Below, piece by piece: positions 1-15,078 of a stretch of DNA of 42,364 nucleotides. The notes beneath the pieces are model-generated. The model did no database searches. It was not told where the DNA came from and saw only the letters and a program-made list of their open reading frames with translations. The DNA is from Legionella sp. (GTDB lineage: Bacteria; Pseudomonadota; Gammaproteobacteria; Legionellales; Legionellaceae), in the NCBI GenBank assembly GCA_030158115.1, contig JAOATK010000015.1, forward strand, positions 20,764 to 63,127. The letters are read 5' to 3'. The translations under genes were made by a program, and so were the position numbers. Position 1 is the stretch's first letter. Every line of letters starts with the position of its first letter.

Positions 1-190
1 ATTTACGTAAACGTTTGCGTTACCGCTTCCGTTACCGGAAATTCACCAAATCACTTAATCCTATATTAAAAACATTAAAAACGGTAACGCAAAAGGGCAC
101 GCAAACGTTCACGTAAATGAGCGCTTACGCGCAGTTTTAGATTAAAAGCACTTTGTTTTGTTTATCTCAATAAACCGCGCGCTAGCGCTC
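1..190. repeat. 190-bp double-hairpin repeat, unit 1
   Basis: First visible unit of a direct-repeat array with a period of 190 bp; the next unit starts at 191 with the same sequence. The unit has two parts. Part A (about 1-124) starts ATTTACGTAAACGTTTGCG and ends CGCAAACGTTCACGTAAAT, so its ends are inverted copies and can fold on each other. Part B (about 119-190) is bounded by GAGCGCTTACGCGC and GCGCGCTAGCGCTC, a second inverted repeat. The array may continue left of the window. Confidence 0.9.
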
Positions 191-778
191 ATTTACGTAA
201 ACGTTTGCGTTACCGCTTCCGTTACCGGAAATTCACCAAATCACTCAATCCTATATTGAAATAACAAAACATCTCCCTATAAAATACTCCCCCAACTTTC
301 GCAAACGGATGAAATGAAAAATGCCTTATTTTGATCATGAAAAATTACATGTGTATCAAGCCGCTATTGAATTTGTTGTCCTTACAGAAAGCATCGTCAT
401 GCAGTTTCCTAAAGGAAGGGGATATCTTGTTGATCAGCTACAACGAGCATGTTCATCAGTAGCCTTGAATATAGCAGAAGGTGCCGGAGAATTTTCTACA
501 AATGAAAAAATTCGATTTTATCGAATGGCAAGACGATCCGCGACAGAATGCGCTAGTATTCTCGACATTTGTACTCATTTGAATTTGATTAATGAAAAAA
601 TGGGCTTGAAATCTCGTGATTTATTATTTCGGATTGTTTCTATGTTGACTAAAATGGTGCGAATAGCTTCAGTAACGCCAGTGGGCTCGTAGATGTTCAC
701 GTAAATGAGCGCTAGCGCGCAGTTTTAGATTAAAAGCACTTTGTCCTGTCCATCTTAATAAACCGCGCGCATGCGCTC
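191..778. repeat. Repeat unit 2, expanded by an embedded four-helix-bundle gene
   Basis: The left 70 bases or so (191-260) and the right 108 bases or so (671-778) match units 1 and 3. The roughly dozen central bases of a short unit are replaced by about 410 bp holding the gene at 321-692. Part B here runs 705-778, with GAGCGCTAGCGCGC and GCGCGCATGCGCTC arms. Either the gene-bearing form is the parent and the short units are internal deletion products, as MITEs are of transposons, or a gene was captured. The sequence alone does not decide. Confidence 0.88.
321..692 (+). CDS. Four-helix-bundle protein, 23S rRNA IVP/S23 (Avd-like) family
   Basis: The protein is 123 residues, the usual size for the four-helix-bundle family first found inside intervening sequences of 23S rRNA and related to the Avd accessory protein of diversity-generating retroelements. 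Visible family signatures are HEKLHVYQAAIEF near the N-terminus, the FPKGRGYLVDQLQRA segment, NIAEGAGEFS at about residues 51-60 and RFYRMARRSATECASIL at about 65-82. No membrane segment or signal peptide is seen. In rRNA intervening sequences the ORF sits between inverted repeats that form a stem; here the same layout exists outside any rRNA gene, and the last codons (from about 672) lie in the right arm of the host repeat. Its biochemical role is unknown; basic four-helix bundles of this family are thought to bind nucleic acid. The frame is intact, which suggests the gene is maintained. Confidence 0.85.
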   Translation: MPYFDHEKLHVYQAAIEFVVLTESIVMQFPKGRGYLVDQLQRACSSVALNIAEGAGEFSTNEKIRFYRMARRSATECASILDICTHLNLINEKMGLKSRDLLFRIVSMLTKMVRIASVTPVGS

Positions 779-968
779 ATTTACGTAAACGTTTGCGTTA
801 CCGCTTCCGTTACCGGAAATTTACCAAATCACACAATCCTATATTAAAAGCATTAAAAACGGTAACGCAAAAGGGCTCGCAAACGTTCACGTAAATGAGC
901 GCTTACGCGCAGTTTTAGATTAAAAGCACTGTGTCCTGTCCATCTTAATAAACCGCGCGCATGCGCTC
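779..968. repeat. 190-bp double-hairpin repeat, unit 3
   Basis: A complete short unit with the same 190-bp length as unit 1 and only scattered substitutions. Part A has arms at about 773-816 and 858-902 and Part B at about 897-968. About 25 of the 26 outer arm bases pair, then an internal mismatch patch, then GTTACCG pairs with CGGTAAC. Confidence 0.9.
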
Positions 969-993
969 ATTTACGGTTACCGAAAACTCACCA
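969..993. repeat. Truncated fourth repeat unit
   Basis: ATTTACG followed directly by GTTACCG(A)AAA.TCACCA: this is the start of a repeat unit with about 23 internal bases deleted. It stops right at the stop codon (994-996) of the minus-strand M20 peptidase gene, so the array directly adjoins that coding sequence. Confidence 0.75.
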
Positions 994-14991: not shown

Positions 14992-15078
14992 GCCTGGGTG
15001 GCGGAATTGGTAGACGCGCCGGATTCAAAATCCGGTGGTGGTGACACCGTGTGGGTTCGACTCCCACCCTAGGTACCA
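14992..15078 (+). tRNA. tRNA-Leu (CAA)
   Basis: An 87-base class II tRNA with CCA encoded at 15076-15078. The acceptor stem GCCTGGG pairs with CCTAGGT (two G-U pairs). The D arm contains GGTAGACGC, the anticodon stem CCGGA/TCCGG holds a TTCAAAA loop with anticodon CAA (reads UUG), a long variable arm (TGGTGGTGACACCGTG) follows, and the T loop is TTCGACT. No duplicated 3' end was seen in the window, so there is no direct sign of integration at this tRNA. Confidence 0.97.

Follow-up and report, generated by a model that had tools for sequence, protein, structure and literature searches.

IVP/S23-family genes inside hairpins built of short tandem units: a Legionella palindrome array and a probable class of mobile elements

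Results

A palindrome array in Legionella carries an IVP/S23 gene in one of its loops

We analyzed a 42,364-nt stretch of Legionella sp. DNA (contig JAOATK010000015.1, positions 20,764 to 63,127; hereafter the window) that begins with a tandem array of palindromes, filling positions 1-975, in which one of the loops between palindromes carries a gene of the IVP/S23 family. The source genome (2.03 Mb) is called G000; other G numbers denote genomes, C numbers contigs and L numbers loci. An earlier reading made from the letters alone (the sequence-only reading) had described a 190-bp direct repeat with two inverted repeats per unit and one copy expanded by about 400 bp around an intact IVP/S23 gene, and the analysis bore this out. 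Positions 1-197 and 779-975 are 93% identical, and a second repeat family, formed by 84-261, 672-849 (89%) and 862-1039 (71%), has spacings of 588 and 190, which indicates a unit of 190 bp with one interval longer by 398 bp. Each unit holds two hairpins (1-37/82-118 and 112-137/172-197). It can alternatively pair as a single longer palindrome (82-137/172-227; 56 nt, 84% complementary, 34-nt loop), and because adjacent palindromes are separated by 44-nt spacers, the same arms can pair across the spacers too.

Folding of the unit, which the earlier reading had proposed, is well supported: the four single hairpins have z scores of -6.0 to -7.6 relative to dinucleotide shuffles (0/200 equally stable in each case), and the gene-bearing interval 191-800 has a z score of -4.08 (0/20 shuffles equally stable). 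The tandem array that it had placed at 1 to 993 is real, with an extent that needs correction, as the array starts ~410 bp before the window (G000 C14:20355), so that the window edge cuts it, and ends at 975. Since the assembly has 100 N inside the array, it does not fix the true copy number. An Rfam scan of the window found no rRNA (and no large-subunit (LSU) rRNA), in agreement with the statement that none lies nearby.

Table 1 Features of the palindrome array, in window coordinates
Positions	Strand	Feature	Basis
1..37	.	Arm, CGTTACCG end rightward, of a palindrome starting left of the window	Inverted repeat
38..81	.	Gene-less spacer/loop, 44 nt; first 34 nt match the gene-interval leader at 32/34	Repeat and alignment
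82..137	.	Left arm of gene-less palindrome	Inverted repeat
138..171	.	Central loop, 34 nt, of palindrome 82-137/172-227	
172..227	.	Right arm of palindrome 82-137/172-227; also left arm of the gene-bearing hairpin	Inverted repeats
228..320	+	Leader between arm and IVP gene	
321..692	+	IVP/S23-family four-helix-bundle protein, 123 aa; last codons within the right arm	
672..725	.	Gene-bearing hairpin, right arm (coding part diverged); also left arm of the next palindrome	
726..759	.	Central loop, 34 nt	
760..815	.	Arm	Inverted repeats
816..859	.	Gene-less spacer, 44 nt; 31/34 to the gene leader	Repeat and alignment
860..915	.	Arm	Inverted repeat
916..949	.	Central loop, 34 nt	
950..975	.	Final shortened arm; right end of the array, ahead of the M20-type peptidase stop codon	

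The IVP protein is under purifying selection and is modeled as a helix bundle

The open reading frame (ORF) in the loop is intact and matches PF05635 (E = 1.9e-23, over the cut-off) and TIGR02436 (E = 5.5e-22); a genome search found no second PF05635 gene in G000. Its product shares 76% identity with the IVP protein of a Legionellaceae metagenome-assembled genome (MAG), and comparison with the L058 protein gave a nonsynonymous rate (dN) of 0.139 and a synonymous rate (dS) of 0.812, which indicates purifying selection on the protein. The AlphaFold2 model is a confident helix bundle (pLDDT 95.8). At E ≤ 0.001, the sole solved structures matched were two members of this family, XCC0516 (2gsc) and BT_0352 (2rld). 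Avd, a protein of diversity-generating retroelements (DGRs), was matched at 6-7% identity, with E = 0.03 and TM scores of 0.76/0.87 for 4dwl and E = 0.04 for 8ub7 (Avd in a DGR ribonucleoprotein). In an earlier report, XCC0516 is given as a homopentamer and the function of S23p as not known (PMC4990558).

Gene-less copies are dispersed in the genome, and the array is absent from the equivalent site in same-genus relatives

Gene-less copies of the palindrome lie elsewhere in G000 on contigs C3 (two copies), C8 and C25, so the unit is not confined to this locus. The arms of these four copies pair at 51/51, 52/53, 53/54 and 39/40, and their left arms match one another at just 38-44 of 49-51 positions (49/50 for the two C3 copies). 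The C8 copy folds as a single long stem (z = -18). Within the array, both gene-less spacers begin with 34 nt that match the leader 5' of the IVP gene (Table 1), and a Nostoc plasmid locus described below (L408) is gene-less where two related plasmids have the gene; this partly supports the earlier suggestion that short units are deletion derivatives.

The array lies between two genes that we take to encode a ComEA-like protein (upstream on the same contig) and an M20-type peptidase. Among 23 M20-peptidase loci of the same genus (L296-L318), 21 keep the ComEA-like neighbor, and none of the 23 holds arm words in the intergenic stretch (eight words of 9-11 nt tried). Along with the dispersed gene-less copies, these loci support the proposal of a mobile or amplifying element. 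A search of 45 genomes of the genus for the arm pattern exceeded its backwards control in G000 (15 v 0), G020 (9 v 0) and G032 (6 v 0); the remaining 42 had 0-2 matches, which indicates that the arms are sporadic in the genus. In G020, the middle of L037 (G020:C27:39986-43019) holds a long palindrome built of the same type of hexamer (CGGACA CGCTCA CGGGCA CGCATA CGTTCA CGTAAA), and a PF05635 search of G020 gave no match.

IVP genes lie between inverted arms in several bacterial groups

Loci with IVP genes came from the 80 closest relatives of the window protein (set B, picked by likeness to it) and from searches of 369 Gammaproteobacteria, 119 Planctomycetota, 148 genomes from the phylum to which a Bacteroidetes MAG belongs, and plasmids; they are mostly the best-scoring matches of each search and were not randomly drawn. 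PF05635 matches over the Pfam cut-off occurred in 71/369, 55/119 and 113/148 genomes of the three groups, respectively, a few of them Avd-like, and the plasmid protein search gave 8 records. A phage search for the IVP protein found none.

The association of gene and hairpin, whose absence elsewhere would have told against the sequence-only reading, was found. In a first set (83 loci out of 111, after removal of those with a truncated gene or short flanks), an inverted-repeat (IR) score of at least 30 was reached by 53/83 IVP genes, compared with 1/147 neighboring ORFs and 43/986 mismatched pairs. In an enlarged set of 224 of 268 IVP genes (those excluded were truncated, <85 aa, with flanks <150 nt, with a low hidden Markov model score or with many N), 133/224 reached this score, compared with 22/1785 mismatched flank pairs. 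Ten Avd-like rows remained in the 224, none of which reached it (0/10), leaving 133/214 without them. The arms hug the gene: over 108 strong cases, the median gap was 39 nt on the start-codon side and 9 nt on the stop-codon side, and the arm overlapped the 3' end of the gene in 34/108. Rfam applied to 60 IVP loci found no LSU rRNA within the stretches examined.

The nearest relative gene found (L058, from a Legionellaceae MAG) lies between 43-nt arms that pair at 100% and resemble those of the window in kind; this element sits downstream of a group II intron match. Near-identical hairpins flank the gene of L064 on both sides, and L054 (Gemmatirosa) has an 8-nt unit with an IR score of 61.

PF05635 matches in four genomes of the same genus (G015, G019, G022 and G031) fall below the Pfam cut-off and were not used as evidence; judging by their start sequence, these and the near-identical copies of G359 presumably resemble DGR Avd. 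G359, a 1.5-Mb Gammaproteobacteria genome, has ten near-identical Avd-type genes at different places (C1; L207-L216), which look like a strongly amplified part of a DGR. As a separate observation, two IVP matches lie within long open frames and are possible fusions (L109 2995-5169, 725 codons; G504:C1:3442300-3442614, 760 aa).

The length of the tandem unit clusters by protein clade

The arms of the window element may be parsed into degenerate hexamers (CGGTAA CGCAAA AGGGCA CGCAAA CGTTCA CGTAAA TGAGCG... in arm 82..137). Averaged over nine arms picked by hand (six of G000, plus L058, L059 and G020), this CGNNNA pattern gives identities of 0.43 (lag 6) and 0.53 (lag 12), compared with a shuffled mean of 0.25 at lag 6 (maximum 0.34 in 500 shuffles). 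Many other IVP genes have arms made of tandem units. In the Gammaproteobacteria set, 37/60 flanks were periodic, all 37 at 7 nt; among close relatives (Legionellales, Chlamydiae, Planctomycetes, Myxococcota and other MAGs), 48/106 were periodic, 39 at 6 nt, 6 at 12 nt and 3 at other lengths. The corresponding control with neighboring ORFs gave 5/248. A looser rule assigned a period to 152/224 genes (86 at 7 nt, 45 at 6, 18 at 8, 2 at 9 and 1 at 10).

We mapped these labels onto a tree of the window protein and 143 periodic rows with near-identical ones removed (144 proteins in all). It was a quick tree made without a mixture model, and its starred branches are less trusted. The labels required 16 changes, compared with a shuffled mean of 54.5 (0/200 shuffles as low), and still 16 when the hand-given label of the window was dropped. 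The 6-nt group (41 rows including the hand-labeled window) required 4 changes, compared with 36.1 for shuffled labels, and the window protein falls in a starred set of 42 rows, 40 of them at 6 nt. With its few columns, many open forks and one long branch of Avd type (one Avd-like row, L018, is included), the tree is used to claim clustering only.

The sequence of the unit varies freely at a given length, with CGTGCC, TTCCCG and AAGGGC among 6-nt units and GAGTAGG-like, CAGTGTT-like and GTCAGGA-like sequences among 7-nt units. Length goes with subfamily even within a single genome: in a Gemmataceae MAG (G406), where we examined five of eight PF05635 matches, the unit is 6 nt in L081, 7 nt in L221, L234 and L246, and 8 nt in L264. 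A protein resembling that of L264 occurs in G411 (L236), again with an 8-nt unit and with a different unit sequence. The length of the unit (6, 7 or 8 nt) tends to cluster by protein clade while its sequence does not, and the clade of the window protein is a 6-nt one. The sequence-only reading had described neither the tandem units within the arms nor how widely gene and hairpin are associated.

Near-identical copies and occupied versus empty sites indicate movement

Rhodopirellula solitaria has 17 PF05635 matches, and nine copies of an element of 605-613 bp are 97.3-99.8% identical to one of their number. These copies have their ends in common, with GTT at both; the differences between them include gains or losses of entire 6-nt units in one arm or the other, and no pair has both flanks in common. 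We considered integron cassettes as an explanation for the clustered copies and set this aside, as the sequence that follows GTT does not match the attC core.

Three plasmid families provide occupied and empty sites. In plasmids of Nostoc sp. C052 and N. edaphicum, an IVP element whose arms have 7-nt units separates two genes. The element is absent from this place in two plasmids of Nostoc sp. C057, and the hairpin that Nostoc sp. ATCC 53789 (L408) has at the site lacks the gene; its lag-7 score is 16.5, and no other lag in the range 4 to 11 exceeds 7.5. In Picosynechococcus PCC 7003, a plasmid-borne type III-B CRISPR operon has an IVP element (L056 1483-1839) lying between cas10 and cmr3, and PCC 7002 has no IVP gene between these two genes. 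Aulosira laxa plasmid 2 has an IVP gene where three related plasmids have none; an annotated gene spans the insertion point in L409 and L410, and the annotation differs in L412. Together, the Rhodopirellula copies and these plasmid comparisons indicate that the elements move.

Discussion

A probable class of small mobile hairpins

We consider that the window element probably belongs to a widespread class of small mobile hairpins, with an IVP-type four-helix-bundle gene in the loop and arms that, where a period can be called, are mostly inverted arrays of short units. This reading builds on what the analysis showed: the anatomy of the elements, unit lengths that cluster, a protein kept by purifying selection, gene-less copies at scattered places, sites both with and without the element, and amplification in one genome. 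A protein that binds its own hairpin, as the sequence-only reading had proposed, is made more likely by the way in which unit length appears to cluster by clade. In such a mechanism, the arms would fold in RNA (and perhaps in single-stranded DNA), the IVP protein, probably a pentamer like XCC0516, would bind the stem in register with the unit, and an enzyme acting in trans might copy the hairpin and reinsert it, which is our guess. Copying by fold-back would keep the two arms complementary, gene-less palindromes would be non-autonomous derivatives, and the intervening sequences (IVSs) of 23S rRNA may be members that landed in rRNA and were made harmless there by RNase III. We infer the binding of the stem and copying through RNA with a borrowed reverse transcriptase from the fold, the clustering of unit length and the concerted arms.

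A more specific proposal is tentative, and we regard it as possible rather than probable. Here, a pentameric IVP protein would bind the hairpin and help to copy it, setting the length of the unit and not its sequence, so that different clades would write or maintain arms of 6, 7 or 8 nt. The elements would then be non-autonomous retro-hairpins that use a borrowed reverse transcriptase, as Avd serves the DGR enzyme, and they may be both the source of scattered heptamer repeats and the parent class of the rRNA IVSs. The order of the arms in the window, with the gene loop at one end of the stem, a small loop at the other and units in tandem, also fits multimers of a circular dumbbell intermediate.

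Several observations count against these proposals. A designed helix bundle (E = 0.02) outranks Avd, for which all E values lie above 0.001, so likeness of fold alone is weak; and a crude motif scan of 221 loci (a few kb each) gave 5 hits and no convincing reverse transcriptase. The IR score was below 30 in 91/224 IVP genes and 72/224 had no period call, while the looser rule also called neighboring ORFs periodic in 23/220. Bacteroidota were weak on both measures (IR score of at least 30 in 14/30, period in 12/30). The 8-nt label clustered poorly (12 changes for 18 rows, compared with 17.2 for shuffled labels). The automatic rule, which was built for exact repeats, found no period for the window, nor for L058, L059, L061 and L069; the nine arms of the hexamer average were hand-picked, and the '6' of the window on the tree was assigned by hand. 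The arms of the window array pair worse than those of the dispersed copies (47/56, 41/54 and 23/26), and the left arm of the C8 copy matches two left arms of the array at 48/51 and 47/51; thus the arms change together in the dispersed copies only, and within the array they have drifted. One flank is common to some of the Rhodopirellula copies (L249-L251 and L248-L250-L252 on the left, L253-L254b on the right), and no clear target-site duplication was found in the three plasmid families. An apparent gene-deleted Rhodopirellula element (L257 1089-1399) has an N at its junction, perhaps an assembly join, and was not counted.

Other explanations

Movement might instead occur at the DNA level, with the arms serving as ends for a Y1/REP-type transposase encoded elsewhere and the IVP protein as an accessory or cargo, comparable to the dependence of REPINs (hairpins formed by repetitive extragenic palindromic (REP) sequences) on RAYT transposases. 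This would accommodate the dispersal of gene-less palindromes within one genome, arms that come in pairs, the Aulosira insertion in the 3' part of a coding region with no clear target duplication, and the GTT common to both ends of the Rhodopirellula copies. REP ends have a fixed sequence, however, whereas the unit sequence is free here and its length clusters by protein, which disfavors this account; we hold it to be somewhat unlikely. Passive spread, which we judge unlikely, would have palindromes grow by slippage and recombine, with an IVP gene caught between them hitch-hiking by homologous recombination of arms or palindromes. Copies that differ by whole 6-nt units in either arm are what slippage would give, and recombination would be in keeping with the near-identical hairpins on both sides of the L064 gene, the single flank that some Rhodopirellula copies have in common, and the window array itself, which is a tandem duplication. 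Yet it does not account for the presence of one gene family between such arms in several phyla or for the clustering of unit length by protein clade, and the plasmid comparisons suggest clean insertion of a whole element at sites without a prior hairpin.

The closeness of the arms to the gene, with their frequent overlap of its 3' end, and the purifying selection on the protein would also be expected of an immobile arrangement, in which the arms are an autoregulatory RNA structure or a terminator of a chromosomal IVP gene and the protein binds its own mRNA. The dispersed gene-less copies, the empty sites and the near-identical copies at different places speak against this, and we consider it very unlikely as a full account, which the empty sites disfavor, though it may still hold as a function of the element.

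Relation to known systems

The closest known arrangement is the IVS of 23S rRNA (e.g., in Coxiella burnetii), in which the same protein family sits in the loop of a long inverted repeat. The window element differs in lying outside rRNA, in its hexamer-like arms and in its dispersed gene-less copies. According to PMC4990558, the Coxiella IVS has tandem heptamers before the S23p gene whose number varies between strains, which fits the 7-nt majority among IVP elements. DGR Avd may have a similar fold, but no reverse transcriptase or template repeat was seen beside the window gene. The G-rich heptameric repeats of Xanthomonas and Nostoc are tandem heptamers, as in the arms of IVP elements; 70 and 75 convergent heptamer pairs capable of forming hairpins are reported from two Xanthomonas genomes, in an article whose main text has no mention of S23, four helix or intervening (PMC4692102). 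These arrays are candidates for gene-less members of the IVP class. REPIN/RAYT systems and miniature inverted-repeat transposable elements (MITEs), including those of Coxiella, are short dispersed palindromes without an enzyme of their own, like the gene-less copies here, and the window element shares with them several copies at different places of G000 and empty sites in relatives. It differs from them in its arms of tandem units with a length tied to a non-enzymatic protein; no transposase is known for it, and none was searched for.

IVP/S23 proteins are common and their function is not known. If the length of the unit follows the clade but its sequence does not, the family would have a candidate substrate, and the biochemistry of IVP proteins would be open to direct test; in that case, rRNA IVSs and the heptamer repeats of bacteria that still lack an explanation might form a single class of mobile hairpin. 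We found no open-access paper that joins IVP/S23 genes outside rRNA with inverted arms of tandem units, in a search of titles and the starts of abstracts that covered few subscription papers and no preprints; this is no proof of novelty.

Surroundings of the array

The M20-type peptidase gene downstream of the array occupies 994-2412 on the minus strand, and we take the nearest ORFs in the window to be M20-peptidase-like, MurG-like and NadC-like. A tRNA-Leu (caa) at 14992-15078 was the sole RNA gene found in the window. At the equivalent intergenic place in a relative, the last 150 nt of L298 contain a different palindromic repeat (CGTCATTGCGAGAAGC type), and this spot may be a general landing place for such elements.
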